Shown one piece after another: positions 1-16,363 of a stretch of 36,923 nt of DNA (position 1 is the first letter of the stretch; every line of letters begins with the position of its first letter). This DNA is from Rhizobium sp. (GTDB taxonomy: Bacteria; Pseudomonadota; Alphaproteobacteria; Rhizobiales; Rhizobiaceae), in contig DPXQ01000080.1 in the NCBI GenBank assembly GCA_003527225.1, positions 1 to 36,923 on the forward strand, in the 5' to 3' direction. The position numbers were made by a program, and so were the translations under genes. A model generated the notes under the pieces. That model saw only the letters and a list, made by a program, of their open reading frames with translations, had not been told where the DNA came from and searched no databases.

Positions 1-1574
<1,574 letters not shown>

Positions 1575-2789: not shown

Positions 2790-3848
2790 CTAGTCCCGCA
2801 CGACGAGGAGATCGCCGGAATCGATCTTCAGCGACACGGTGTCGCCGATGGCCGGCGGAGTGATGCTTGGATCGTTGAACATGTCGAAGGAAACGGTATT
2901 TCCGGCGACATTGATGCGGGTTCGGATGACCGAGCCGAGGAAGTGGCCCGACACGACCTGACCGGTCAGCGTCGTATCGCCCTTGGCGCCGTCGAGAATG
3001 GAGCCTGCTTCCGGACGCATCGCGAGCTGGACCGTGCTGCCCGCCGGAACGGTGATCTTTTCCTTTAGCGCGACCGTCAGGTCGCCGATCGCGACGGTGT
3101 TGTTCTGCGGATCGACGACCTTCGCTTCGATCAGGTTCAGGGTGCCGACGAAGGAGGCGACAAAGCGGGTTGCCGGGCGATTGTAGATCTCAAAGGGTGT
3201 GCCGATCTGATCGGCGCGGCCGGCATTCATCACGACGACGCGGTCCGATATCGACAGCGCTTCTTCCTGGTCGTGGGTGACGAAGACCGTGGTGATGCCG
3301 AGCTGGCGCTGGATCTGGCGGATTTCCTCGCGCAGGGAAACACGGATCTTGGCGTCGAGCGCCGAGAGCGGCTCGTCGAGCAGCAGCACCTGCGGCTTCG
3401 GTGCAAGCGCCCGGGCGAGCGCCACGCGCTGCTGCTGGCCACCCGACATCTGGTAGGGATAGCGGTCGGCGAGATGTTCCAGGTGAATGAGTTTCAGCAT
3501 CTCCGTGACGCGTGCCTGGATTTCGTCCCTCGGCTTACCGGCCACCTTCAAACCGAAGGCGACGTTGTCGAACACGTTCATGTTGGGAAACAGCGCATAG
3601 GCCTGGAAGACCATGCCGATGTTGCGCTGGTTCGGCTTGAGGCGCGACTGGTCCTTGCCGTCGATGACGATCGTGCCGCCCGACGGGGTTTCGAAGCCGG
3701 CGACCATGCGCAGGATCGTCGTCTTGCCGCAGCCGGACGGCCCGAGGAAGGAGACGAACTCGCCCTTGTCGATCGACATGTTGAAATCGTGGACGACTTT
3801 GACCGCGCCGAAGGATTTTTGGATATTCGTCAGGGTCAGGAATGTCAT
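2790..3848 (-). CDS. ABC transporter ATP-binding protein, PotA-like
   Basis: This 352-residue protein is the ATPase of a periplasmic-binding-protein-dependent importer. Walker A is GPSGCGKTT (about 36-44), followed by the Q-loop in VFQAYALFPN, the signature MSGGQQQRVALARAL, Walker B in VLLLDEPLSALD and the switch histidine in VTHDQEEA. The last 110 or so residues form a TOBE-type regulatory domain, as in PotA, FbpC and UgpC. It is the last gene of a four-gene transport operon and starts 10 nt after the second permease. The substrate cannot be read from the ATPase. The superfamily includes polyamine, iron(III) and 2-aminoethylphosphonate importers. Confidence 0.95.
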   Translation of the reverse strand: MTFLTLTNIQKSFGAVKVVHDFNMSIDKGEFVSFLGPSGCGKTTILRMVAGFETPSGGTIVIDGKDQSRLKPNQRNIGMVFQAYALFPNMNVFDNVAFGLKVAGKPRDEIQARVTEMLKLIHLEHLADRYPYQMSGGQQQRVALARALAPKPQVLLLDEPLSALDAKIRVSLREEIRQIQRQLGITTVFVTHDQEEALSISDRVVVMNAGRADQIGTPFEIYNRPATRFVASFVGTLNLIEAKVVDPQNNTVAIGDLTVALKEKITVPAGSTVQLAMRPEAGSILDGAKGDTTLTGQVVSGHFLGSVIRTRINVAGNTVSFDMFNDPSITPPAIGDTVSLKIDSGDLLVVRD

Positions 3849-3858
3849 AAATCTATCC

Positions 3859-4650
3859 TCAGGCGGGGCGTTGGGTTGTCTTTTGCAGGCGTGAGACGAG
3901 CTGGATCAGTACGAGGCAGCCCCAGGTGATGCCGAAGGCGATTACCGACAGCGCGAAGGGTTCGTAAGCCTTGTTGGCACCGATGCGTTGCAGGTAGGGG
4001 CCGAAGGCGGGCCGGTCGAGCAGGGAGGCGAGGGTGAATTCGCCGATGACGATGGCAAAGGTCAGGAAGGCGCCCGACAGGACGGCGGGTACGACATTCG
4101 GCAGAATGACCCGACCGAGAATGGTGACCCAGCCGGCGCCGAGGCTCTGTGCCGCTTCAGTCAGCGTGGCGACGTCGATGGTCCTCAGCCCCGTGTCTAC
4201 CGCACGGTACATGTAGGGCAGGGCAAGGATCGTGTAGCCGAAGGCTAGCAGGAGATTGGTGCCCAGAACCGAGCCTGTCAGCGGCAGCCAGCTCGACGTG
4301 TTGTAGAGGCGGATATAGCCGAACACGATGACGATGGCCGGGATGACGAGGGGCATTAGTGTCAGGAATTCGACGTAGGGGCGGGCCCAAGGCATCTTGA
4401 GCCTGACCCAGAAGGCCGTCGGCACGACGAGCAGGACGCCGATCACGATCGTTAGCAGCGCCATGACCACCGAATAGGTGAAGGTCTGCTGGAACTGCGG
4501 GTCGGCCAGGACCTTGGCATAGGCGTCGAACGAATAGACGCCGCGGCGCGCCTTCAGGGAGAATTCGAACAGGCCGCCGAGCGGCACGAAGAAATAGAGC
4601 AGACCAAAGATCAGTGCGGCCCAACCGGTGATGCGTGCCCAGAAGCTCAT
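3859..4650 (-). CDS. ABC transporter permease, second subunit (PotC-like)
   Basis: This is a 263-residue inner-membrane permease with about six hydrophobic segments. It carries the cytoplasmic EAA loop (TEAAQSLGAGWVTILGRVIL), which docks on the ATPase. The frame is open further upstream, but that stretch is the neighbour's antisense. The ATG at 4650 gives MSFWARITG, directly before the first membrane helix. It overlaps the previous permease stop in an ATGA, which indicates translational coupling. Separate permease genes resemble the PotB/PotC layout rather than a fused FbpB-type iron permease. Confidence 0.93.
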   Translation of the reverse strand: MSFWARITGWAALIFGLLYFFVPLGGLFEFSLKARRGVYSFDAYAKVLADPQFQQTFTYSVVMALLTIVIGVLLVVPTAFWVRLKMPWARPYVEFLTLMPLVIPAIVIVFGYIRLYNTSSWLPLTGSVLGTNLLLAFGYTILALPYMYRAVDTGLRTIDVATLTEAAQSLGAGWVTILGRVILPNVVPAVLSGAFLTFAIVIGEFTLASLLDRPAFGPYLQRIGANKAYEPFALSVIAFGITWGCLVLIQLVSRLQKTTQRPA

Positions 4651-5522
4651 TTCAGCCACCTTTCGGCGCGTACGCGCAGCCAGATGTAAACGACGTTGGC
4701 GATGGCGGTGACGACGATCATGCCGAAGGCCATGGCATAGCCGAGATGCGGATTGCCGAGCACGTCGCCACGGATCTGGGCGTAGAGCTGGATCGGCACG
4801 ATATTGAGGCTCGAACCGGTCAGCGCGATAGCTGTCGCGACGGCGCCGAAGGCATTGGCGAACAGCAGGGCGAAGGTGCCGAGGATCGACGGAAAGAGGA
4901 TGGGCAGGGCGACCATGCGCCAGTACTGAAGCGCGGTTGCGCCTAAAACCTCGGCCGCCTCTCGCCATTCGCGCCGCAGGCCCTCGAGCGCGGGCGTGAT
5001 GATCAGGATCATGAGCGGGATCTGGAAGAACAGGTAGGTGATCGTCAGGCCCCAGAAGCTCAGGATGCTGAAGCCGAGATCGCGCTGGAGGACGATGCCG
5101 AAATTGTTGCGCAGCAGGACGGTGACGAGGCCGACGGGGCCGAAGGTCGCCAGAAAGGCGAAGGCGAGCGGCACGCCGGCGAAATTCGAGGCGACCCCGG
5201 AAAAGGTTAGCAACGGCGACTTGATCCAGCGTGGCACGGTGCCGAAGACGACGGCCGCCGCCATGCCGAAGCCGATCAGGCAGCCGAGCGCGGCCGAGGC
5301 GACTGAGATCTTGATCGAAATCCAGTAGCTTGAGGGAATGGTGCCGGAGTTCAGGTCAATGATGTTCTGCAGAGTGAACGCGCCGTCGCGGGTCTGGAAG
5401 GCGCCAATGACGATGTGCATCGTCGGCAGGACCAGAAACATCACCACGAAGATCACGAAGGGCAACAGACCCAACCAGGTCAGCGGCAGGCGCAGTCGGC
5501 GCGCGGAGGGAGCTTGGTTCAT
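4647..5522 (-). CDS. ABC transporter permease, first subunit (PotB-like)
   Basis: This is a 291-residue integral membrane protein. A short basic N-terminus (SARRLRLP) precedes the first helix, with about six membrane segments overall, and there is an EAA loop (EWREAAEVLGATALQYWR followed by ALP). It pairs with the next gene to form the membrane channel of the importer. The ATG at 5522 is the natural start, and the stop overlaps the start of the second permease by four bases. The gap back to the binding-protein gene is 118 bp and holds a strong hairpin, a common way to keep binding-protein expression above that of the membrane subunits. Confidence 0.93.
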   Translation of the reverse strand: MNQAPSARRLRLPLTWLGLLPFVIFVVMFLVLPTMHIVIGAFQTRDGAFTLQNIIDLNSGTIPSSYWISIKISVASAALGCLIGFGMAAAVVFGTVPRWIKSPLLTFSGVASNFAGVPLAFAFLATFGPVGLVTVLLRNNFGIVLQRDLGFSILSFWGLTITYLFFQIPLMILIITPALEGLRREWREAAEVLGATALQYWRMVALPILFPSILGTFALLFANAFGAVATAIALTGSSLNIVPIQLYAQIRGDVLGNPHLGYAMAFGMIVVTAIANVVYIWLRVRAERWLK

Positions 5523-5593
5523 ATTCGCGAGTCTTCGCTAAAAGGCGTGAATGCAGGTCCGGCAAAGTATGGCCGGTGCTTCAGATATGGCAA

Positions 5594-5622
5594 GCCCCGG
5601 CCCGATGGTGTCGGGCCGGGGC
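5594..5622 (-). other. Intercistronic hairpin between binding protein and permease genes
   Basis: A perfect 12-bp stem, GCCCCGGCCCGA (5594-5605) with TCGGGCCGGGGC (5611-5622), has a 5-nt loop. Read on the minus strand no T-run follows, so it is more likely a 3'-end stabiliser or partial attenuator for the binding-protein message than a full terminator. Confidence 0.7.
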
Positions 5623-5640
5623 CACAGGCTCGTGGCCTGA

Positions 5641-6747
5641 TTACTGGACGTTGGCGCCGACGACGCTGTCCCAGCCACCGGTTACGACTGTCTTGTTGGC
5701 GTTCTGCTCTTCGACGGTCGGGAAGACAGCGGCTTCGTAGCTAGCGGCCGGCGGCAGGGCATCCAGAAGTTCCTTCTTGATGTTGCCTGCCTTGGCCATG
5801 GCGTTGAAGCGGGCCGGGTGGCAATAGCCCTTGAGCCACAGGTTCTGGCCTTCGTCCGAGTAGAGGTATTCCATCCACAGCTTCGCAGCGTTCGGATGCG
5901 GAGCAAAGGCAGAGATGCCCTGGACATAGACACCGGCGAGGACGCCGGTCTTCGGAACGACGACCTCGACCGGCGGGTTGCCGGCGAGTTCGTCACGCCA
6001 TGCCAGCACGTTGTAGTCCCATGCGACAGCGATCGGGGTGGCGCCCTGCGCGATGGTGCCGGCCTTGGCGATAACCGGAACGAAATTGCCGGCCTTGTTC
6101 AGCTCGGCGAAATATTCCAGACCAGCCTTGCCGGATTCTTCACCGGCCTTCGCACCCTTGTGCAGGCCAGCGGCGAGAACGCCCAGGATTGCCTGGTTCG
6201 AGGCACGCGGGTCGCCGGCGAGTGCGACCTGACCGGCATATTCCGGCTTCAGCAGGTCGGCCCAGTCCGCCGGAGTGTTCTTGACGAGGTCCTTGTTCAC
6301 GATGAACGAGAGAACGCCGTAGTAGTCGCCGTACCAGTAGCCTTCGGCATCCTTGATGGTTTCCGGGATTTCGTCCCAGGTGGAGACCTTGTAGGGCTGC
6401 AGGAGGCCTTCGGACTTCATCTGCGGACCGAAGGCGAGGCCGACGTCAACGACGTCCGGAGCCTGCGGGCCCTTGTTGTCCTTGTTGGCCTTGATGGCTT
6501 CGACTTCGTCGGCCGAGCCGGCGTCCGGGTTGAGTTCGTTGACCTGGATTTCCGGATATTTTGCCTTGAAGCCGGCGATAACGTCGCCATAACCGCACCA
6601 GCTGTGGGGCAGGGCGATCGTGGTCAGGTTGCCTTCTTTCTTGGCGGCTTCGATCAGTTCGGCGCTCGGCTCGGCAAAGACGAGCGAGGTGGAGGCGACG
6701 ACCATTGCGGTCGACAGCGAGAGCATGCGGCGAAGATTAGTGGTCAC
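5641..6747 (-). CDS. ABC transporter periplasmic substrate-binding protein (family 1)
   Basis: This 368-residue protein is the ligand-binding component of the importer. It begins with a Sec signal peptide (basic LRRML, hydrophobic core, likely cleavage after SLVFA). The mature start EPSAELIEAAKKEGNL is typical of family 1 solute-binding proteins related to iron(III), polyamine and 2-aminoethylphosphonate binders. Other features include DVVDVGLAFGPQM and YWYGDYYGVLSFIVNK. The start is a GTG at 6747 preceded by AAGGAG seven bases upstream, which fixes it. It is the first gene of the four-gene ABC operon and lies 164 bp downstream of the RpiR gene on the same strand. I cannot name the ligand. 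The tandem tyrosines of classical iron binders are not obvious. Confidence 0.92.
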   Translation of the reverse strand: MTTNLRRMLSLSTAMVVASTSLVFAEPSAELIEAAKKEGNLTTIALPHSWCGYGDVIAGFKAKYPEIQVNELNPDAGSADEVEAIKANKDNKGPQAPDVVDVGLAFGPQMKSEGLLQPYKVSTWDEIPETIKDAEGYWYGDYYGVLSFIVNKDLVKNTPADWADLLKPEYAGQVALAGDPRASNQAILGVLAAGLHKGAKAGEESGKAGLEYFAELNKAGNFVPVIAKAGTIAQGATPIAVAWDYNVLAWRDELAGNPPVEVVVPKTGVLAGVYVQGISAFAPHPNAAKLWMEYLYSDEGQNLWLKGYCHPARFNAMAKAGNIKKELLDALPPAASYEAAVFPTVEEQNANKTVVTGGWDSVVGANVQ

Positions 6748-6911: not shown

Positions 6912-7784
6912 TTACCGCGGCTTGCGAAACAGCCGCGCCTGCTCGAAGAGCCCTTCGAGGGTATTCATACGTTCGCGGGTCTCATCCCACGCCAGGCTCT
7001 GAACTGCCTCGATCAGAGCTTCCACCACGAATAGCGTCACGACGGAGGAGTCCCAGGCCGAGGGCGCTTCTATCTGCACCTTGAAACTGTGCTGCGCGTA
7101 CTTGGCCACGGGTGATGTCCATTGATCGGTAAACAGCACTATAGTGACGCCGTTGGACTTTGCCACGTTCGCAAGCGTCGCCATATCGGCCTCATAGCGA
7201 CGTATATCGAATATTACGAGGACATCGCCGGCGCTCATGTTGAGCATATGCTGTGGCCAGGCGCTGGTATTCGACGACATCAGCGTCGTTTTCGGCCGGA
7301 TAACCTGCATATGGGTGAAGAAATATTCCGCCAGCGCGCCCGTTATGCGTCCGCCGACAAAATATATGCTGCGCTTGCGGTCGGCGAGCAGCTTGGCCGC
7401 TTCGTTGAATGTTTCCGTATCGAGTTCGCTGAGGGTCTGGCGCATATTGTTCATCACCGCTTCGGCGAAGCGGTTGAGAATGTGCGTGCCGGGAGCATTT
7501 GACGCCCACCGGTCATGCTTGGCGATCGGATTTGAAATCGATGCTTCCAGTTCCTGGTGCAAATGCGCCTGGAAATCCTGATAGCCCCTGTAGCCGAGCT
7601 TCTGCACCATGCGCGCAACGGTCGGGGTGGACACGCCGGCATTTTCCGCGATCGTCGTGATGCTGCCCAAGCCCGAGACCGGATAGTTGTCGAGCAGGCT
7701 TTCCGCAAGTTGGCGCTCGGCGCGGGTCAACCCGGCGAAATGGGCATGGATTACGTCCGACACTGTTTTCGACGTATTTCGCAC
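6912..7784 (-). CDS. RpiR-family transcriptional regulator (HTH plus SIS domain)
   Basis: This is a 290-residue DNA-binding regulator. The N-terminal RpiR-type helix-turn-helix covers about residues 1-75 (LTRAERQLAESLLDN, ITTIAENAGVSTPTVARMVQKLG). A SIS domain covers about 115-255 (SIYFVGGRITGALAEYF, DVLVIFDIRRYEADM); in this family it usually binds a small ligand, often a phosphosugar but not always. The start is a GTG at 7784 with GGGGAACT upstream. It is divergent from the amidohydrolase/TRAP operon (175 bp gap) and upstream of the ABC operon on the same strand, so it could control either or both. The divergent layout and the dyad motifs in that gap favour the plus-strand operon. Confidence 0.92.
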   Translation of the reverse strand: MRNTSKTVSDVIHAHFAGLTRAERQLAESLLDNYPVSGLGSITTIAENAGVSTPTVARMVQKLGYRGYQDFQAHLHQELEASISNPIAKHDRWASNAPGTHILNRFAEAVMNNMRQTLSELDTETFNEAAKLLADRKRSIYFVGGRITGALAEYFFTHMQVIRPKTTLMSSNTSAWPQHMLNMSAGDVLVIFDIRRYEADMATLANVAKSNGVTIVLFTDQWTSPVAKYAQHSFKVQIEAPSAWDSSVVTLFVVEALIEAVQSLAWDETRERMNTLEGLFEQARLFRKPR

Positions 7785-7865
7785 GTGCTTGTAGTTCCCC
7801 TATCCGGTCTGTGCCGGCTATCGGAAATTTATCAACCGAGCATCCGGACCTGTCAATGCGCAACT

Positions 7866-7921
7866 GAAGAGAAATTTTCAGAACCCGGTTGACTTGCGGC
7901 CAAACGTGAAGAATTCTCTTC
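7866..7921 (+). promoter_or_regulatory. Putative RpiR operators and promoter of the catabolic operon
   Basis: Two similar 14-bp motifs are seen: GAAGAGAAATTTTC (7866-7879) and GAAGAATTCTCTTC (7908-7921). The second is a dyad with 5-bp arms; the first has one mismatch. Their starts are 42 bp apart, about four helical turns. A TTGACT at 7889-7894 lies between them and could be a -35 element; a -10 about 17 bp later would fall inside the second motif. Assignment to the RpiR protein is inference from position. Confidence 0.4.
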
Positions 7922-7959: not shown

Positions 7960-8742
7960 ATGCTGGTACGTTCGGACATTCTGACGGCGGCGGACGGAGA
8001 GCCTGTTGCCGTGGAAAATTCCGATGGCAAGGGCGCCGTGCTACTGGTCTGCGAGCACGCATCCTCGACGCTGCCGGCCAGTGCCGGCGATCTGGGCTTG
8101 AGCCGCACGGCGCTCGAAAGCCATATCGCGTGGGATCCGGGCGCTCTTGCAGTCGCCCGGCTGCTGGCGGATAGCCTTGACGCAACGCTGGTTCACCAGC
8201 GCTTTTCACGCTTGATCTATGACTGCAATCGTCCGCCAGAATCGCCGGCCGCGATGCCGGAGACTTCGGAAATCTATCGCATTCCGGGCAACGAAGGCCT
8301 TAGCGTCGCTGAGCGCTATGCCCGGACCGCCGCACTCTACATTCCCTTCCATGACCGGATTTCCGGCATCCTGGCCGGGCGCCGCGCGCGCGGTCAGAAG
8401 ACAGTCGTTGTCACTGTACATAGCTTTACACCGGTCTACATGGGCAAGCAGCGCGACGTCGAGATCGGCATTCTGCACGATGTCGACAGTCGGCTGGCTG
8501 ACGGAATGCTCAAGGCAGCCGAAGGCGGACCATATCGTGCCGAGCGCAACGAACCCTATGGACCAAAAGACGGGGTAACCCATAGCCTGAGGCTCCACGC
8601 GCTGCCTGGCGGGCACCTGAATGTGATGATCGAGGTCAGAAACGATCTCATACGCGACGAGGAAGGGCAGCGGGTGATTGCCGATTATCTGGCGGGGCTG
8701 CTGCGGACCGGTCTGGAGGCGCTTTCGTCACAGCAGAACTGA
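7960..8742 (+). CDS. N-formylglutamate amidohydrolase (HutG/FGase) family hydrolase
   Basis: This is a 260-residue cytoplasmic metal-dependent hydrolase. Family motifs run in order: VCEHAS (about 29-34), WDPGA, SRLIYDCNRP, VHSFTP and IEVRNDLI. Characterised members cleave N-formyl-L-glutamate in histidine degradation, but no other hut gene is here. It is instead the first gene before a TRAP transporter, a GS-like ligase and two dehydrogenases. In that setting I infer it hydrolyses a gamma-glutamyl product, for example gamma-glutamylglycine to glutamate and glycine. The ATG at 7960 follows a GGCGGGGG purine stretch. An earlier start is unlikely because the region upstream holds the likely promoter. 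Confidence 0.85.
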   Translation: MLVRSDILTAADGEPVAVENSDGKGAVLLVCEHASSTLPASAGDLGLSRTALESHIAWDPGALAVARLLADSLDATLVHQRFSRLIYDCNRPPESPAAMPETSEIYRIPGNEGLSVAERYARTAALYIPFHDRISGILAGRRARGQKTVVVTVHSFTPVYMGKQRDVEIGILHDVDSRLADGMLKAAEGGPYRAERNEPYGPKDGVTHSLRLHALPGGHLNVMIEVRNDLIRDEEGQRVIADYLAGLLRTGLEALSSQQN

Positions 8743-8784
8743 TACGAAAATCTGGCATGGTTTTATAAAAGAAGAGGGGAACGG

Positions 8785-8868
8785 ATGCCGATACGAAGAG
8801 AGAGAGACGTTGCGCCGCATCGGCCCGCGATGGGCCGCGCGACCGACGGGGGCTGCGTACATGCCTAA
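8785..8868 (+). CDS. Possible 27-codon leader ORF overlapping dctQ start
   Basis: An ATG at 8785 has a good ribosome site (AGAGGGGAACGG) and reads 27 codons to TAA at 8866-8868. The product is short and basic (begins MPIRRERDVAPHRP). The stop overlaps the first codons of dctQ, whose own ribosome site is poor, so translation of dctQ could be coupled to this leader. The peptide itself may have no function. The alternative is that this ribosome site is fortuitous. Confidence 0.35.
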   Translation: MPIRRERDVAPHRPAMGRATDGGCVHA

Positions 8869-9370
8869 CGCCTTCAAGACCTACGTGCGCGTGGTTGACG
8901 GCTTCAACCGGCGCGTCGGCCGCATTGTGATGTATGGCATCTTTCTGCTAATGGGCATTCTGCTCTACTCGTCGATCTCCAAGGCAATGTTTCTTCCTGC
9001 GCACTGGACGCTGGAGATGGCGCAGTTCGTCATGGCGGGTTATTTTCTGCTCGGCGGCGCCTATTCGCTGCAACTCGACAGCCATGTCCGCATGGACCTG
9101 CTCTACGGCAAATGGTCGCCGAAGACCAAGGCGGCGGTCGATGTCGTGACCATCTTCATGCTGTTCGTCTATCTGTTCTTCATGCTCTACGGCGGCGTAT
9201 CCAGCACGGCTTACGCGCTGAAGTTCGGCGAGACCAGCTATTCGGCCTGGTCGCCCTACATGGCGCCAATCAAGATCATTATGGTGATCGGCATCTTCCT
9301 CACATTTCTTCAAGCGACATCGATCCTGATCAAGGACGTAGCCGTGGCGATCGGGAGGCCGCTCGCATGA
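8861..9370 (+). CDS. dctQ: TRAP transporter small permease (DctQ)
   Basis: This is a 169-residue, four-helix membrane subunit of a tripartite ATP-independent periplasmic transporter. Hydrophobic segments lie at about 23-43, 53-73, 95-117 and 135-158, and the family signature is around QLDSHVRMDLLY. The ATG at 8861 (MPNAFKTYVR) precedes the first helix directly. The frame stays open upstream, including a TTG at 8810, but that extension is not helix-like. The last four bases overlap dctM as ATGA. DctQ bridges the binding protein and the large permease; sodium-coupled uptake is usual for the family. Confidence 0.9.
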   Translation: MPNAFKTYVRVVDGFNRRVGRIVMYGIFLLMGILLYSSISKAMFLPAHWTLEMAQFVMAGYFLLGGAYSLQLDSHVRMDLLYGKWSPKTKAAVDVVTIFMLFVYLFFMLYGGVSSTAYALKFGETSYSAWSPYMAPIKIIMVIGIFLTFLQATSILIKDVAVAIGRPLA

Positions 9371-10692
9371 GCTATGAAATGATCGCACTTCTGATGTTCT
9401 CGTCGATGATGATGTCGATGTTGACCGGCCAGCGCGTGTTCGCGGCCATCGGCTTCGTCGGCGTCGTCGCAGCTGCGCTTCTCTGGGGTAATGGCGGGTT
9501 CGAACTGGGCTTCTCGGCCAATATGAAGCTGATGAAATGGTATGCGCTGCTGACGTTGCCGATGTTCATCTTCATGGGCTATATGCTGTCGGAATCCGGC
9601 ATTGCCGAAGACCTCTACAAGGCCTTCCACGTCTGGTTCGGTGGCCTGCGCGGCGGTCTGGCGCTCGGCACGATCGGGCTGATGGTCGTCATCTCCGCCA
9701 TGAACGGGCTCTCGGTCGCTGGCATGGCAATCGGCGCAACTATCGCGCTCCCGGAACTCCTGCGCCGCGGCTATGACAAGATCATGGTGTCCGGTGTCAT
9801 CCAGGCGGGCAGTTCGCTGGGCATTCTCGTGCCGCCCAGTGTGGTGATGGTGCTCTACGGCATGATCGCTCGCCAGCCGGTCGGCCAATTGTGGCTCGCC
9901 GGCGTGTTCCCGGGCCTCTTGCTTGCGCTGCTGTTTGCCCTCTACGTGGTCATCCGCTGCCGCATCAATCCGGCGCTCGGCCCGGCGCTTCCCAAGGAAG
10001 AACGGGACATGCCGCTCGTCGACAAGCTCAAGCTGGCGCGCGCAGGAATCCTGCCCTTCCTCATCTTCTTCCTGATGATGGGCCTATTCCTGATGGGCGT
10101 GACCAGTCTCGTGGAGAGCTCGGCTGTCGGTGCCCTCGGTTCGCTGTTCGCCGCCTGGTTCAAGGGGCGCCTGACCTGGGCGATGTGGAACCGCGTGCTC
10201 GAGCAGACGCTCGGCATCACCTGCATGTTCATGTGGATCATCATGGCGGCGCTGTGCTTCGGCGCTGTCTTTGACGGGCTCGGTGCGGTGAAGGCGATCG
10301 AAGGGCTTCTGGTCGGCGAATTGGGTCTCGGTCCCTGGCAGATCCTGATCCTGATGCAGATCTCCTTCCTGATCATGGGTGCCTTTCTCGACGATACCGC
10401 CATGCTGGTCATCGTCGCGCCGCTTTACATCCCGCTGGTGGGCAAGCTCGGCTTCGATCTGGTCTGGTACGGCGTGCTCTACACGATCACCTGCCAGATC
10501 GCCTACATGACGCCGCCGTTCGGCTACAATCTCTTTCTTATGCGGGCCATGGCCCCGCCGGAGATTTCACTGGTCGATATCTACCGTTCGGTGTTCCCGT
10601 TCGTGGCGATCATGATTCTCGGCATGATCATCATCATGGCCTTCCCACAGATCGCGCTCTGGCTGCCGCAGCACGTCTATGTCCGGGGGTGA
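9367..10692 (+). CDS. dctM: TRAP transporter large permease (DctM)
   Basis: This 441-residue protein with about twelve hydrophobic segments is the transport channel. Family features include SVAGMAIGATIALPELLRRGYDK, here split as SVAGMAIGATIA and LPELLRRGYDK, then GSSLGILVPPSVVMVLYG and a late MTPPFGYNLFLM loop. Longer upstream reading is antisense or off-frame sequence of dctQ; the ATG at 9367 overlaps the dctQ stop. Subunit order Q-M-P is complete here, so this is a whole TRAP system. The substrate is inferred from the adjacent enzymes and the unusual binding protein. Confidence 0.95.
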   Translation: MSYEMIALLMFSSMMMSMLTGQRVFAAIGFVGVVAAALLWGNGGFELGFSANMKLMKWYALLTLPMFIFMGYMLSESGIAEDLYKAFHVWFGGLRGGLALGTIGLMVVISAMNGLSVAGMAIGATIALPELLRRGYDKIMVSGVIQAGSSLGILVPPSVVMVLYGMIARQPVGQLWLAGVFPGLLLALLFALYVVIRCRINPALGPALPKEERDMPLVDKLKLARAGILPFLIFFLMMGLFLMGVTSLVESSAVGALGSLFAAWFKGRLTWAMWNRVLEQTLGITCMFMWIIMAALCFGAVFDGLGAVKAIEGLLVGELGLGPWQILILMQISFLIMGAFLDDTAMLVIVAPLYIPLVGKLGFDLVWYGVLYTITCQIAYMTPPFGYNLFLMRAMAPPEISLVDIYRSVFPFVAIMILGMIIIMAFPQIALWLPQHVYVRG

Positions 10693-10743
10693 GTGGAAAC
10701 CAACAATGTAAAGAGGTCCGGTTGAACGGCCCGTTCAGTACTG

Positions 10744-10766
10744 GATCCGCCGATGGCCGGCGGATC
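10744..10766 (+). other. Intercistronic hairpin between dctM and dctP
   Basis: An 8-bp stem, GATCCGCC (10744-10751) with GGCGGATC (10759-10766), has a 7-nt loop and no T-run. It lies just before the dctP ribosome site. It may define a processed 5' end that favours high expression of the binding protein. Confidence 0.5.
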
Positions 10767-10798
10767 AAGGTTCACAGAAACAGAAGAGGGAAACAGAC

Positions 10799-11845
10799 AT
10801 GAACAGCAGAAGACATTTTCTCAAGAAGGCCGGTCTGGTCGCCGCCGCCTCGCCGGTCGCGCTCGCCGCACCTTATGTAAAAGCGCAGGACAAGAAGATC
10901 ACCTGGCGTCTCCAGACCTATGCCGGTGCAGCACTTGCCGAATTCGTCATCCGCCCGGCGGTCGATGCCTTCAACAAGGCGGCCAACGGTGAGATGGAAA
11001 TCCAGCTCTACACGGCCGATCAACTCGTCCCGACGGGGGAACTGTTCCGCGCCATGCAGGCCGGCACGATCGACGCCGTGCAGTCGGACGACGACTCGAT
11101 GAACTCGCCGGTGGACATCAAGGTGTTCGGTGGCTACTTCCCGTTCGCGTCGCGCTACAGCCTCGACGTCCCGACCCTGTTCTACGAATACGGCCTCGCC
11201 GAGATCTGGGATGAGGCATACACGGAAGTGGGCGTGAAATGGCTCTCGGCAGGCGCCTGGGACCCGTGCAACTTCGCCACCAACAAGCCGATCAAGTCGC
11301 TCGCCGACCTCAAGGGCCTTCGTGTCTTCACCTTCCCGACAGCCGGCCAGTTCCTGGCGCAATTCGGCGTCGTTCCGGTCACCATTCCGTTCGAGGATGT
11401 GCCGGTCGCGATGCAGACCGGGGAGATTGACGCGATCGCCTGGTCTGGCATCACCGAGGTGCACACCTCCGGCTGGGTCGATGTGACCAAGTACTTCCTG
11501 ACCAACAACGTGTCGGGCGGCTGGGCCGGTTCGTTCTTCGCCAATGCCGACCGCTGGAATGAAGTGCCGGAGCACCTCAAGGTGCTTTGGCAGATGTGCA
11601 TGGATTCATCGCACTATCACCGCCTGCACTGGTACTGGGGCGGCGAGGCCCGTCTTCGCGCCGAGGGCGGCAAGCTGGAACTCACCAGCATTCCGGATGC
11701 CGAGTGGAAGACGGTCGAGGATGCCGCACATGTCTTCTGGGAAGAGATCGCCAAGCAGACGCCGCGCACGGGCAAGGTCGTCGAGATCCTCAAGAAGTAC
11801 AATGCCGACATGGAAAAGGCCGGCAAGCCTTATCGATACGGCTGA
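10799..11845 (+). CDS. dctP: TRAP transporter solute-binding protein (DctP family), Tat-exported
   Basis: This 348-residue periplasmic protein captures the ligand for the DctQM permease. The N-terminus has an exact twin-arginine motif, SRRHFLK (residues 3-9), and a hydrophobic stretch, with cleavage likely near VKAQ. The fold is the DctP type, with KGLRVFTFP (172-180) at the position where most family members have the conserved arginine that clamps a ligand carboxylate. By eye that position is Phe177. Loss of this arginine suggests a ligand that is not a simple carboxylate. From memory, unchecked, a TRAP binding protein of Chromohalobacter salexigens was crystallised with ethanolamine. The start at 10799 follows AGAGGG. 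Confidence 0.93.
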   Translation: MNSRRHFLKKAGLVAAASPVALAAPYVKAQDKKITWRLQTYAGAALAEFVIRPAVDAFNKAANGEMEIQLYTADQLVPTGELFRAMQAGTIDAVQSDDDSMNSPVDIKVFGGYFPFASRYSLDVPTLFYEYGLAEIWDEAYTEVGVKWLSAGAWDPCNFATNKPIKSLADLKGLRVFTFPTAGQFLAQFGVVPVTIPFEDVPVAMQTGEIDAIAWSGITEVHTSGWVDVTKYFLTNNVSGGWAGSFFANADRWNEVPEHLKVLWQMCMDSSHYHRLHWYWGGEARLRAEGGKLELTSIPDAEWKTVEDAAHVFWEEIAKQTPRTGKVVEILKKYNADMEKAGKPYRYG

Positions 11846-11866
11846 TACGGCGCAGGACCGAAGATA

Positions 11867-11927
11867 GTGATCCGGGGGGCTTGCCCCGGATCACGCCGAA
11901 CCAAGAACAATTCCGGGTCATACCCGG
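11867..11927 (+). other. Two hairpins between dctP and the GS-like gene
   Basis: The first is an 11-bp perfect stem, GTGATCCGGGG (11867-11877) with CCCCGGATCAC (11884-11894). The second is CCGGGT (11913-11918) with ACCCGG (11922-11927). Neither is followed by a T-run. They probably set the 3' end of the dctP message or reduce read-through into the enzyme genes. The first resembles the terminator stem at 15891-15919. Confidence 0.6.
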
Positions 11928-11951
11928 CCAGATTGACACTAGGATTTTCCG

Positions 11952-13322
11952 ATGGCCGCGCAGTACACGTTTGACGAATTGAAGAAGGATGTTGCCGAAG
12001 GCCGCATCGACACCGTTCTCGCCTGCATGGTCGACATGCAGGGCCGTCTCATGGGCAAACGGTTCCATGCGCAGTTTTTCGTCGACAGCGGCTACAAGGA
12101 AACGCACAGCTGCAACTATTTGCTGGCGACCGACATGGAAATGGAGACCGTGCCGGGCTACAAGGCGACAAGTTGGGAAAAGGGCTATGGCGATTATGCG
12201 CTGAAGCCGGATCTTGCAACACTGCGCCGCGTGCCTTGGCTGGAAGGTACGGCCCTAGTCCTTTGCGACGTGCTGGATCACCACACCCACGAAGACATTC
12301 GCCATTCGCCGCGCGCCATCCTGAAAAAACAGGTTGCAAGGCTGGAAGCCATGGGGCTGAAGGCCTTCATGGCCACCGAACTGGAATTCTTCCTGTTCGA
12401 CCAGACCTATGACGACGCGCGCGCCTCCGGCTATCGCGACCTGCAGCTCGCCTCCGGCTATAACGAGGACTACCACATCTTCCAGACGACCAAGGAAGAG
12501 GACGTGATGCGGGCGATCCGCAACGGGCTCCAGGGCGCCGGCATTCCGGTTGAAAATACCAAGGGCGAGGCGTCGGCCGGGCAGGGCGAAGTCAACGTGC
12601 GCTATGCCGACGCACTGACCATGGCCGACCGACACGTGATTATCAAGAACGCCTGCAAGGAGATCGCCTGGCAGCGCGGCAAGGCGATCACCTTCCTCGC
12701 CAAGTGGCACTACAACGCGGCCGGCTCGTCGTCGCATATCCACCAGTCGCTCTGGACCGTCGATGGAGGCACGCCGCTGTTTTTCGACGAGAATGGCGAG
12801 CATGGCATGTCGCCTACGATGAAGCACTACATGGCCGGTCTCCTCGCACATGCCAGCGAGATCACGTATTTCCTGGCGCCCTATATCAACTCCTACAAGC
12901 GCTTCATGGCAGGCACATTTGCGCCGACCAAGGCGATCTGGTCGAAGGACAACCGCACGGCCGGCTACCGGCTCTGCGGCGAGGACACCAAGGCGATCCG
13001 TGTCGAATGCCGTGTCGGCGGCTCGGATCTCAATCCCTACCTCGCCATGGCGGCACTTATTGCCGCAGGGATCGACGGCATCGAGAAGAAGCTTGAACTG
13101 GAACCCGCCTTCGTGGGAGACGCCTATGGTGCCCGCGAGGTCCGCGAGATTCCGCGCACGCTCCGCTCGGCCGCTGTGGCACTCAGCGGTTCGGTCATGC
13201 TGCGCGCGGCCTTCGGCGGCGATGTTGTCGATCACTATGTCCGCGCCGCCGAATGGGAACAGGAAGAATACGACCGCCGCATCACCGATTGGGAAGTGGC
13301 GCGCGGTTTCGAAAGAGCATGA
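11952..13322 (+). CDS. Glutamine-synthetase-like gamma-glutamyl amine ligase (GlnT/PuuA/GlnA4 type)
   Basis: This 456-residue ATP-dependent ligase has the GS fold. Metal and ATP residues are kept: TELEFF (Glu143, Glu145), Glu206 and Glu213 in EASAGQGEVN, HIH (262-264), SKDNRTAGYR (331-340) and NPYLAMAA (361-368). The residues that handle ammonium in true GS look replaced. The loop normally reading FDGSS reads PGYKATSW here (about 68-75), and the flap GYEAP is GTFAP (321-325), so the catalytic flap Glu is Phe. The adenylylation tyrosine segment of GlnA is not seen. This matches enzymes that join glutamate to amines or amino alcohols. Followed by ALDH and Fe-ADH genes, an amino alcohol such as ethanolamine is the likeliest partner. 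The ATG at 11952 has TAGGA upstream. Confidence 0.88.
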   Translation: MAAQYTFDELKKDVAEGRIDTVLACMVDMQGRLMGKRFHAQFFVDSGYKETHSCNYLLATDMEMETVPGYKATSWEKGYGDYALKPDLATLRRVPWLEGTALVLCDVLDHHTHEDIRHSPRAILKKQVARLEAMGLKAFMATELEFFLFDQTYDDARASGYRDLQLASGYNEDYHIFQTTKEEDVMRAIRNGLQGAGIPVENTKGEASAGQGEVNVRYADALTMADRHVIIKNACKEIAWQRGKAITFLAKWHYNAAGSSSHIHQSLWTVDGGTPLFFDENGEHGMSPTMKHYMAGLLAHASEITYFLAPYINSYKRFMAGTFAPTKAIWSKDNRTAGYRLCGEDTKAIRVECRVGGSDLNPYLAMAALIAAGIDGIEKKLELEPAFVGDAYGAREVREIPRTLRSAAVALSGSVMLRAAFGGDVVDHYVRAAEWEQEEYDRRITDWEVARGFERA

Positions 13323-13347
13323 ACATCGAAAAACAGGAAGTCAGGTC

Positions 13348-14733
13348 ATGACAATGATCCAATGCATTTCGCCGATCGACGGATCGGTCTACGCCGAGCG
13401 CCCGGCCATGTCGCTCGAAGCCGCCGCCGAGGCGGTGGCTCGCGCGCGCAAGGCGCAAAAGGCCTGGGCGCGCCGCCCGCTTGAGGAGCGCGTCCAGCTC
13501 GTCCTCAAGGGCGTCGCCCGCCTTAACGAGATGTCCGACGAAGTTGTGCCGGAACTCGCCCACATGATGGGCCGCCCGGTGCGCTATGGCGGCGAATACA
13601 AGGGCTTCAACGAGCGCTCGAACTATGTTGCCTCGATCGCTGCCGACGCCCTGAAGCCGCTTGTCATCGAAGAGAGCGCCTCCTTCGAGCGCCGCATCGA
13701 GCGCGAACCGCAAGGCGTCGTCTTCGTCATCGCGCCTTGGAACTATCCCTACATGACGGCGATCAACACGGTTGCTCCAGCGCTGATGGCCGGCAATACG
13801 GTCGTCATCAAGCATGCGACGCAGACCCTTCTGGTCGGCGAGCGCATGGTCCGCGCCTTCGTCGAGGCCGGCGTACCGGACGACGTGTTCGTCAACCTCT
13901 TCCTCGACCACGCCACCACCTCGGCGCTGATAGCCACTGGCAATTTCAACTTCATCAACTTCACCGGTTCGGTCGAGGGTGGACGCTCGATTGAGCGCGC
14001 AGCTGCCGGTACCTTTGCTGGCCTCGGGCTCGAACTTGGCGGCAAGGATCCGGGCTATGTGATGGAGGATGCCGATCTCGATGCCGCCGTCGATACGCTG
14101 ATGGATGCCGCCACCTACAACTCCGGCCAGTGCTGCTGCGGCATAGAGCGCATCTATGTGCATGAGAGCCTCTACGACGCCTTCGTCGAGAAGTCGGTCG
14201 CCTGGGTGTCGAACTACAAGCTCGGCAATCCGCTCGATCCGGAAACGACGCTCGGGCCGATGGCGCACCGCCGCTTTGCCGCGCATGTGCGCGAGCAGAT
14301 CGCCGCCGCCGTTGCGAAGGGTGCGAAGACGCTCGTCGATCCGAAGCTCTTCCCGCAGGATGACGGCCACGCGTATCTGATGCCGCAGATCCTGGTTAAC
14401 GTCGATCATTCCATGTCCTTCATGAAGGACGAGACCTTCGGTCCGGCCGTCGGCATCATGAAGGTCAAGAACGACGAGGAAGCGCTGGAGCTCATGAACG
14501 ATAGCCCCTATGGCCTGACGGCATCGCTGTGGACCCAGGATCCGGCACGCGCCGCTCGGATCGGTCGCGACATTGAGACCGGTACGGTCTTCATGAACCG
14601 CGCCGACTATCTCGATCCGGCTCTGTGCTGGACCGGTTGCAAGGAAACAGGCAAGGGCGGCTCGCTCTCCGTTCTCGGCTTCCAGAACCTCACCCGTCCG
14701 AAATCCTACCACCTCAAGAAGGTCACGAAATGA
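13348..14733 (+). CDS. NAD(P)-dependent aldehyde dehydrogenase
   Basis: This 461-residue ALDH-superfamily enzyme oxidises an aldehyde to an acid. The catalytic cysteine is Cys263 in YNSGQCCCG, and the general base is Glu229 in LELGGKDPG. The cofactor region has APWNYP (129-134), VIKHATQT and FTGSVEGGR. The frame is open far upstream inside the previous gene, but MTMIQCISPIDG at 13348, 25 bp after the GS stop with AGGAAGTCAGG before it, is the standard ALDH start. In the proposed pathway it turns gamma-glutamyl-aminoacetaldehyde into gamma-glutamylglycine. Its stop overlaps the Fe-ADH start (ATGA), tying the two oxidation steps together. Confidence 0.94.
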   Translation: MTMIQCISPIDGSVYAERPAMSLEAAAEAVARARKAQKAWARRPLEERVQLVLKGVARLNEMSDEVVPELAHMMGRPVRYGGEYKGFNERSNYVASIAADALKPLVIEESASFERRIEREPQGVVFVIAPWNYPYMTAINTVAPALMAGNTVVIKHATQTLLVGERMVRAFVEAGVPDDVFVNLFLDHATTSALIATGNFNFINFTGSVEGGRSIERAAAGTFAGLGLELGGKDPGYVMEDADLDAAVDTLMDAATYNSGQCCCGIERIYVHESLYDAFVEKSVAWVSNYKLGNPLDPETTLGPMAHRRFAAHVREQIAAAVAKGAKTLVDPKLFPQDDGHAYLMPQILVNVDHSMSFMKDETFGPAVGIMKVKNDEEALELMNDSPYGLTASLWTQDPARAARIGRDIETGTVFMNRADYLDPALCWTGCKETGKGGSLSVLGFQNLTRPKSYHLKKVTK

Positions 14734-15875
14734 ACATCGTCGCAAACTGGAGCTATCCGACCGCCATCAAGATGGGCCGAGGCCGGATCAAGGAACTTGC
14801 TGACGCCTGCAAGTCGCTCGGAATGAAGAAGCCTCTCCTGGTCACCGACCGGGGCCTGGCGCCGATGCAGATCACCCAAGCGGCGCTCGACGTGCTGGAA
14901 GAAGCCGGCCTCGGCCGCGCGATCTTCGCTGACGTGGACCCCAATCCGAATGAGAAGAATCTCGAAGCCGGCGTAAAGGCCTTCAAGGACGGCGGCCATG
15001 ACGGCGTCGTTGCCTTTGGTGGCGGCTCCGGTCTCGATCTTGGCAAGTGCGTCGCCTTCATGGCCGGGCAGACGCGCCCGGTCTGGGATTTCGAGGATGT
15101 CGGCGACTGGTGGACGCGTGCCAATGTGGACGGCATCGCTCCCATCGTCGCCGTACCGACCACGGCAGGGACCGGTTCGGAGGTTGGGCGCGCCAGCGTC
15201 ATCACCAATTCCGAGACGCATGTGAAGAAGATCATCTTCCATCCGAAGTTTCTCCCGGGCGTGGTCATCTGCGACCCGGAACTGACGGTCGGCATGCCGA
15301 AGGTGATCACCGCGGGCACCGGCATGGATGCCTTCGCCCACTGCCTGGAAGCCTATTCCTCGCCCTTCTATCATCCGATGTCCCAAGGCATTGCGCTGGA
15401 AGGCATGCGGCTGGTCAAGGAATTTCTGCCGCGTGCCTACAAGGATGGCACGGATATCGAGGCGCGCACCAATATGATGTCGGCCGCTGCGATGGGCGCC
15501 GTCGCCTTCCAGAAGGGGCTCGGGGCGATCCATTCGCTCTCGCATCCGATCGGGGCGGTCTACAACACCCACCACGGCATGACGAATGCTGTCGTCATGC
15601 CTCCGGTGCTGCGCTTCAATCGCTCGTCAATCGAAGACAAGATCGCGCGCGCGGCCGCCTATCTCGGCATTTCCGGCGGTTTTGACGGCTTCTACGATTA
15701 CGTGTTGTCGCTGCGTGCCGAACTCGGCGTGCCGGACAACCTCACTGCTATGGGTATCAAGCCGGACCGTATTGATGAACTGACCGCCATGGCGATGGAG
15801 GATCCGAGCTGCGGTGGGAATCCAGTCAAAATGACGCTCGAGAATACCAAGGCACTGTTCCTCGACTGCTTCTGA
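14730..15875 (+). CDS. Iron-containing alcohol dehydrogenase
   Basis: This 381-residue group III (Fe-dependent) alcohol dehydrogenase has a nucleotide-binding segment (FGGGSGLDLGK, about 96-106) and PTTAGTGSEV (143-152). The four metal ligands fit the FucO-type pattern: Asp200 and His204 in MDAFAHCLEA, His268 in AIHSLSHP and His282 in NTHHGM. The start MNIVANWSYP at 14730 overlaps the ALDH stop by four bases. Its likely role is oxidation of the free hydroxyl of a gamma-glutamylated amino alcohol to the aldehyde used by the preceding ALDH. It is the last gene of the operon and a terminator follows. Confidence 0.94.
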   Translation: MNIVANWSYPTAIKMGRGRIKELADACKSLGMKKPLLVTDRGLAPMQITQAALDVLEEAGLGRAIFADVDPNPNEKNLEAGVKAFKDGGHDGVVAFGGGSGLDLGKCVAFMAGQTRPVWDFEDVGDWWTRANVDGIAPIVAVPTTAGTGSEVGRASVITNSETHVKKIIFHPKFLPGVVICDPELTVGMPKVITAGTGMDAFAHCLEAYSSPFYHPMSQGIALEGMRLVKEFLPRAYKDGTDIEARTNMMSAAAMGAVAFQKGLGAIHSLSHPIGAVYNTHHGMTNAVVMPPVLRFNRSSIEDKIARAAAYLGISGGFDGFYDYVLSLRAELGVPDNLTAMGIKPDRIDELTAMAMEDPSCGGNPVKMTLENTKALFLDCF

Positions 15876-15890
15876 GACCAGGACCGCTCC

Positions 15891-15926
15891 ATGATCCGGC
15901 ACCCCAGGCGCCGGATCATTCTTTTA
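15891..15926 (+). terminator. Rho-independent terminator of the TRAP/gamma-glutamylation operon
   Basis: A perfect 10-bp stem, ATGATCCGGC (15891-15900) with GCCGGATCAT (15910-15919), has a 9-nt loop and is followed by TCTTTTAC. It starts 15 bp after the Fe-ADH stop. Confidence 0.85.
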
Positions 15927-15985
15927 CTGTTTTCTGTCCGCCGTGGGCCGGTCATTTCAAATCATCATTTTGAAGAGGTCTTTTC

Positions 15986-16363
15986 ATGAAGAAGTCGATA
16001 GCCTTCGTCATAGCGCTGTCTGCCAGTATGCTCGCCACCGGTGCTGCCGCCGAGAGCTTCACGAGCCTGGTCAAGAAGGGCTATGTCGTCGGCAAGATGA
16101 GCCAGGGCAAATCCGGTGCGCTTGGCTGGGTGCTGAGCAGTAAGGATGGAAAGCAATTCTGCAAGACGAAGGTCAGTCTAGCTTATGTCGACGCGAAGAG
16201 GATGGTGAGCATTCTCGCCAGTGGCCGCATGGTGTCCATGGACCGGGCAACGTTCGAGCAGAGCCTCGGTGGGCCAGATCCCTCCATCCCGATGCTGGCC
16301 GACCTGAAGGCGGGGCGCATTCAACCGCAGCATGTCGGCGCCTGTACGCCGCTTCGTGGGTGA
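15986..16363 (+). CDS. Small secreted protein of unknown function
   Basis: This is a 125-residue protein. A clear Sec signal peptide (MKKSIAFVIALSASMLATGAAA) ends with an AxA-type cleavage site near residue 22. The mature part, about 100 residues, has two cysteines (Cys59 in QFCKT, Cys120 in GACTP) that could form one disulphide, and no lipobox. I do not recognise a domain. The ATG at 15986 follows GAAGAGG. It stands alone between the Fe-ADH terminator and the ParA-like gene, so its neighbours do not suggest a role. Confidence 0.75.
   Translation: MKKSIAFVIALSASMLATGAAAESFTSLVKKGYVVGKMSQGKSGALGWVLSSKDGKQFCKTKVSLAYVDAKRMVSILASGRMVSMDRATFEQSLGGPDPSIPMLADLKAGRIQPQHVGACTPLRG

Follow-up and report, generated by a model that had tools for sequence, protein, structure and literature searches.

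A Rhizobium operon predicted to take up ethanolamine and to oxidise it after gamma-glutamylation

Which compound is imported and degraded by the products of seven co-oriented genes found in Rhizobium sp.? The genes lie within positions 7960-15875 of contig DPXQ01000080.1 (assembly GCA_003527225.1), whose 36,923 nucleotides are the window analysed here. Open reading frame (ORF) calls and Pfam matches assign them, all on the forward strand, to an N-formylglutamate amidohydrolase (FGase)-family hydrolase, the TRAP importer proteins DctQ, DctM and DctP, a glutamine synthetase (GS)-like ligase, an aldehyde dehydrogenase (ALDH) and an iron-containing alcohol dehydrogenase (Fe-ADH). A preliminary description had located all seven correctly on one strand and proposed a gamma-glutamylation route for an amino alcohol, perhaps ethanolamine, with its own TRAP importer. 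That proposal is now supported by the route published for Phaeobacter sp. MED193, the likeness of DctP to 4UAB, the residues at the ammonium site of the ligase and the gene order kept in 38 of 77 loci. With a probability that we put at about 0.93, the seven genes form a counterpart of the published eto operon, through which ethanolamine is taken up, gamma-glutamylated and oxidatively degraded.

Gene order and the published eto pathway

The pathway is already known, in print with the same gene arrangement. The MED193 operon (MED193_10021-10056) codes for RpiR, GGAH, EtoV, EtoW, EtoX, ETAGA, GAADDH and GETADH, and the route given for it runs from ethanolamine to gamma-glutamylethanolamide, the aldehyde, gamma-glutamylglycine and finally glycine plus glutamate (PMC10132767). 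EtoX binds ethanolamine with a Kd of 7.9 uM, and proteomics of MED193 on phosphorylethanolamine showed induction of five proteins, GGAH, EtoX and three other enzymes (PMC10132767). The window has the same genes, arranged as listed for MED193 (hydrolase, TRAP Q, M and P, ligase, ALDH, Fe-ADH), with an RpiR-family regulator gene adjacent and divergent. MED193 differs in being a marine Roseobacter, and the two operons are likened by gene order, not by sequence identity.

For the window we infer substrate, enzyme steps and control as follows. EtoX (DctP) would capture periplasmic ethanolamine and EtoVW (DctQM) would carry it into the cell, where the GS-like ligase would join it to glutamate at the expense of ATP. 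The alcohol of gamma-glutamylethanolamide would be oxidised to the aldehyde by the Fe-ADH and the aldehyde to gamma-glutamylglycine by the ALDH. The FGase-family hydrolase would finally release glycine and return glutamate. RpiR would probably keep the genes repressed from conserved palindromes, and ethanolamine or an intermediate would lift this repression.

Conservation of this arrangement was assessed by scanning genome contigs with the window DctP, which gave 77 loci (L001-L076 with 61-97% identity over the best segment, L077 with 24%). High identity to L001, L002 and L020 suggests that the window belongs to a Ciceribacter-like member of the Rhizobiaceae. Genes were tallied by tblastn of the window proteins at a minimum of 40% identity and more than half coverage, RpiR being exempt from the 40% limit. 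All seven genes occur in order on one strand in 38 of the 77 loci, each of them with a divergent RpiR gene; because the loci were picked by query peptides, fractions among the 77 are not unbiased. The order is more than chance, and the objection that the genes might not be conserved together is contradicted. The published route is thus kept as one block in loci of Rhizobiaceae, Rhodobacterales and Devosia. Two matters retain interest, the regulator and the way in which catabolic modules are exchanged behind a single importer.

Related pathways have been described elsewhere. That of C. salexigens is tabulated as PF00120, PF00465, PF00171 and PF05013 (review PMC9397018). The same steps were proposed for S. 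coelicolor, whose GlnA4 was shown to glutamylate ethanolamine and for which an FGase-family hydrolase is also proposed, but the cluster as listed has another transporter and a short-chain dehydrogenase (PMC6529630); this comparison is by description. The E. coli PuuA-PuuD putrescine pathway likewise gamma-glutamylates an amine, oxidises it and then releases the product, but with the PuuB oxidase and the PuuD hydrolase where the window has Fe-ADH and FGase.

Importer and enzymes

The best solved relative of the window DctP is Csal_0678 of C. salexigens (PDB 4uab), identical at 219 of 318 positions. Csal_0678 was crystallised with ethanolamine, whose amine and hydroxyl are held by Glu220 (PMC12410723); it lacks the usual TRAP arginine (PMC4646407), and ethanolamine is described as an unusual ligand for it because of its positive charge (PMC5812351). 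Residue 220 of the window protein is Glu and lines up with chain position 217 of 4uab, which we equate here with the published Glu220; residue 177 is Phe, against Arg in TTHA0766. It therefore combines the two features of EtoX-type proteins, the Glu220 platform and the absence of the TRAP arginine. Glu220 is invariant in 61 of 61 sequences: 38 from full-cluster loci, 18 of the Pseudomonas kind (introduced below), three of the eutBC kind, the window and 4uab.

An argument of another type comes from the neighbours of close DctP relatives. EutB comes directly after the TRAP set in Vibrio hannami (L048) and Aliagarivorans taiwanensis (L054) (Pfam 7.6e-221 and 2.6e-219, respectively), and their DctP proteins are 69% and 68% identical to that of the window. 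EutC follows next in L048 (7.6e-90); in L054 it was judged by eye only. The importer is here coupled to another catabolic route. Close TRAP relatives thus stand either with gamma-glutamyl enzymes or with ethanolamine ammonia-lyase, which argues independently for ethanolamine as substrate of the importer. The stretches concerned are 7095-12408 in L048, where an AraC-type regulator gene lies upstream, and 7600-12471 in L054.

This bears on the idea that the main substrate of the pathway is a different short amino alcohol, for example 2-amino-1-propanol or 3-aminopropanol, and ethanolamine a secondary one. The enzyme chemistry would fit such compounds, the specificity of ligase and hydrolase is predicted, and Glu220 is not a specific marker. 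The closeness of DctP to two proteins reported to bind ethanolamine, together with the TRAP relatives found directly before EutB, makes the idea improbable. The analogues that PMC10132767 names for MED193 EtoX, in the passages used here, include no other amino alcohol, so these passages do not count against such substrates.

The start of the DctP gene (10799-10890) encodes the peptide SRRHFLKKAG, which we take to be a twin-arginine-like signal. The name given to its relative 4uab refers to the twin-arginine pathway.

The ligase is 66.9% identical to 5dm3, presumably the C. salexigens enzyme, and only 27.4% and 28.2% to E. coli GlnA and PuuA. Nineteen GlnA positions were checked. The metal ligands E129, E131, E212, E220, H269 and E357 are kept, as are G265, H271 and arginines 321, 339, 344, 355 and 359, and Y397 aligns with Tyr. 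D50, S53, Y179, N264 and E327 are replaced by P, K, E, A and F, so that none of the ammonium-site residues D50, Y179 and E327 is present; the D50 and S53 columns vary between loci and are less surely aligned. The residue roles, ammonium site included, are taken as background and are in part confirmed by PMC6529630. Phe occupies position 327 in all eight full-cluster ligases aligned and in 5dm3, and Trp in three sequences of the Pseudomonas kind; S. coelicolor GlnA4 has Phe and PauA7 has Trp at this position (PMC6529630). These residues suggest a site that would accommodate amines bigger than ammonium.

The GS fold and the full set of metal ligands would also suit an ordinary glutamine synthetase or a polyamine ligase whose neighbours serve an unrelated alcohol, and the protein is matched by three NCBIfam models, those of GlnA, type III GS and PuuA. 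The matches reach 257.7, 241 and 203 bits against cut-offs of 429.15, 469.6 and 650. With E327 and Y179 replaced, low identity to GlnA and PuuA, and the ligase gene kept beside the TRAP genes in 38 of 77 loci, such an enzyme is very improbable, and a gamma-glutamylating ligase for ethanolamine is the preferred assignment.

The hydrolase had been announced as an amidohydrolase-family enzyme. It is present, but its family is that of N-formylglutamate amidohydrolases (PF05013), which we do not take to be the one usually called the amidohydrolase superfamily. Membership of PF05013 might suggest a genuine N-formylglutamate deformylase whose position in the set is accidental. The HutG deformylase model, however, gives 19.5 bits against a cut-off of 278.75, the hydrolase gene opens the set in every one of the 38 complete loci, and its MED193 counterpart is induced with the pathway (PMC10132767). 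A chance deformylase is accordingly the least credible of the alternatives, with hardly any probability left to it, and release of glycine from gamma-glutamylglycine is the predicted role. Comparisons with Atu2144 of A. tumefaciens (2odf), as with 5dm3, are between proteins, not loci. Hydrolase, ligase, ALDH and Fe-ADH have no NCBIfam match above cut-off among the matches listed (25 of 44 for the ALDH), and on this ground assignment of the substrate from family models alone was rejected.

Related loci and ethanolamine ammonia-lyase

The preliminary description had envisaged a route without EutBC. EutB was searched in the genomes of 35 of the 38 full-cluster loci (all except L001, L008 and L057) and found in a single one, L034 (Marinicella sp. 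W31), in keeping with that claim; the control of the search gave a match in one of 14 genomes, that of E. coli. EutBC systems act on the same substrate, and in L048 and L054 EutB comes after a close relative of the TRAP importer, but they use cobalamin-dependent ethanolamine ammonia-lyase chemistry. L034 is counted among the full-cluster loci although its ligase and ALDH genes (10138-12969) each match in two frames. The frame breaks may reflect decay of a redundant route, or sequencing errors.

The remaining 39 loci are diverse. Sixteen, the Pseudomonas kind (L035-L039, L041-L046, L049-L051, L053 and L056), have TRAP, ALDH and Fe-ADH genes, the dehydrogenases with 52-58% identity; 14 of them have a GS match of only 31-34% and two (L036 and L038) have none. 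No FGase match was found in the 16. Ten of these loci were searched for EutB: eight have it below 1e-200, L038 has a weak match with a stop, and it was not found in the L037 genome. Among four loci inspected (L035, L041, L043 and L053), L041 has a class-I glutamine amidotransferase gene directly after that of the Fe-ADH, whose product is perhaps the hydrolase there.

Under the tally limits, nine loci have DctM and DctP alone, one of them (L040) on a contig of 3.7 kb, and six have DctQMP alone (L022, L024, L048, L054, L055 and L060). The genomes of L048, L054 and L055 carry EutB. Two more (L007 and L014), whose contigs end on the left side, have DctQMP, GS, ALDH and ADH. The rest consists of two Frigidibacter loci with other neighbours and of L064, L065, L075 and L077.

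Several points weigh against the ethanolamine assignment. Glu220 is just as invariant in sequences whose genes have other neighbours, all eight of the Rhodobacter group and both of Frigidibacter; by itself it is therefore no proof of ethanolamine, and its use as a substrate discriminator was dropped. The Rhodobacter-group loci have a TRAP importer of 61-64% identity beside other genes, and the Martelella loci L022 and L024 show TRAP genes without pathway enzymes in the stretch examined. In MED193, EtoX is also raised without phosphate (PMC10132767). The C. salexigens pathway is called an in silico prediction in one report (PMC6529630) but demonstrated in another (PMC10132767), and the dehydrogenase and hydrolase steps appear, from the passages cited, to rest on induction and prediction.

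In the Rhodobacter group, the TRAP genes adjoin those of an FGGY kinase and an FAD oxidoreductase in L066 (2142-10047), whose genome gave no EutB match, and that of a DeoR regulator in L072; this importer may carry another uncharged or cationic solute. On the opposite strand beside the TRAP genes, Frigidibacter L070 (10120-12784) and L068 carry an FGase gene, assigned to PF05013 in L070, together with a GS-like gene of low identity (26-27%); these may form another gamma-glutamyl amine pathway.

The distance between ligase and ALDH genes, 25 bases in the window, is about 0.87-1.1 kb in nine loci and 0.67 kb in L034, measured between best matches. An additional gene at this place was considered and rejected: the ORFs listed for the longer gaps are scattered, and one of them (L023) has helix-turn-helix matches.

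Regulation, transcription signals and flanking genes

The divergent RpiR gene, beside the set in all 38 complete loci, lies outside the stretch first noted (7960-15875); an RpiR gene also heads the MED193 operon (PMC10132767). The palindrome TGAA-N8-TTCA is found in 35 of 39 RpiR-FGase intergenic regions (the window and the 38 full-cluster loci; absent from L047, L057, L058 and L061), whereas 200 base shuffles gave a mean of 0.1 of 39. Because many of the loci are closely related, the count overstates independence. These palindromes are the candidate sites of the proposed repression by RpiR.

The candidate promoter (Table 1) was not reported by the promoter scan. A strict motif (TTGAC, 14-22 bases, TGAA[GC]AA) was discarded, as it fits only 3 of the 39 regions and fails in the window; a looser form, TGAAGAANNNT, run in the same script, fits 33.

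The SIS domain of the window RpiR contains GGRIT and FDIRRYE, and the forms GGR[IF][TS] and FD[IVM]RRY[ED] occur in 41 of 41 orthologues (window, 38 full-cluster loci, L064 and L065). The usual phosphosugar SIS motifs, which we take to be G-x-G-x-S and S-x-S/T-G-x-T, are absent from all 41; E. coli HexR and AlsR have them, MurR less exactly. Uniqueness of this loss was not upheld, as four other RpiR paralogue loci in two related genomes differ in their own ways (by eye), so this regulator is not singled out by motif loss alone. The chances seem evenly balanced that the regulator represents a subtype of its own, with a SIS domain that has lost these motifs and responds to ethanolamine or a gamma-glutamyl intermediate, and that it acts through TGAA-N8-TTCA, upstream of the -35 element, and GAAGAATTCTCTTC, near the -10 element. 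In a literature search that combined RpiR and SIS domains with ethanolamine or effectors, the matches listed included none on this regulator other than PMC10132767.

Table 1. Features of the operon region in the window
Feature	Position	Strand	Evidence
Divergent RpiR-family regulator, probable operon repressor	6912..7784	-	Pfam HTH_6 4e-15, SIS 1e-26; divergent in 38/38 complete loci
Conserved palindrome TGAA-N8-TTCA, candidate operator	7865..7880		35/39 RpiR-FGase intergenic regions
Candidate promoter: TTGACT at 7889, then near-palindrome GAAGAATTCTCTTC at 7908-7921	7889..7921	+	TGAAGAANNNT in 33/39 regions
FGase-family hydrolase, predicted gamma-glutamylglycine amidohydrolase	7960..8742	+	PF05013 2.6e-41; 167/254 identical to Atu2144 (PDB 2odf)
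TRAP small permease DctQ (EtoV)	8861..9370	+	PF04290 7.7e-18
TRAP large permease DctM (EtoW)	9367..10692	+	PF06808 9.1e-67; ATGA overlap with DctQ
TRAP solute-binding protein DctP (EtoX), predicted ethanolamine binder	10799..11845	+	PF03480; 4uab E 7.2e-158
Hairpin without T run, dctP-ligase gap	11867..11894	+	-25.1 kcal/mol, z -3.97 for 11855-11905
GS-like ligase, predicted ethanolamine gamma-glutamylase	11952..13322	+	PF00120 3.4e-101; 66.9% to 5dm3
Aldehyde dehydrogenase, predicted for gamma-glutamylacetaldehyde amide	13348..14733	+	PF00171 1.6e-117; ligase/Fe-ADH-flanked in 38/38 complete loci
Iron-containing alcohol dehydrogenase, predicted gamma-glutamylethanolamide dehydrogenase	14730..15875	+	PF00465 2.5e-48; ATGA overlap with ALDH
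Terminator-like hairpin, then TTCTTTT	15891..15919	+	-19.9 kcal/mol, z -5.60

Both ATGA overlaps of the preliminary description are real (9367-9370 and 14730-14733). Its single terminator was borne out in part. A hairpin with a T-rich tail follows the Fe-ADH gene and none of 200 shuffles was as good, although a simple terminator scan did not report it; the second strong hairpin, between dctP and the ligase gene, was not foreseen and is a possible RNA stabiliser or attenuator.

The only other TGAA-N8-TTCA of the window, TGAAGAGGTCTTTTCA at 15971-15986, overlaps the start of a small ORF (15986-16363) whose product has a signal-peptide-like start and no Pfam match. Positions 15-1574 (+) code for the C-terminal part of a cobalamin-dependent methionine synthase, 519 amino acids from the first start codon of the window, aligned to the MetH model from position 726 on. 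Between them and the regulator gene, positions 2790-6747 (-) encode an ABC importer whose binding protein and ATPase are nearest to 2-aminoethylphosphonate models, below cut-off; the binding protein gene adjoins the operon in 24 of the 38 complete loci.

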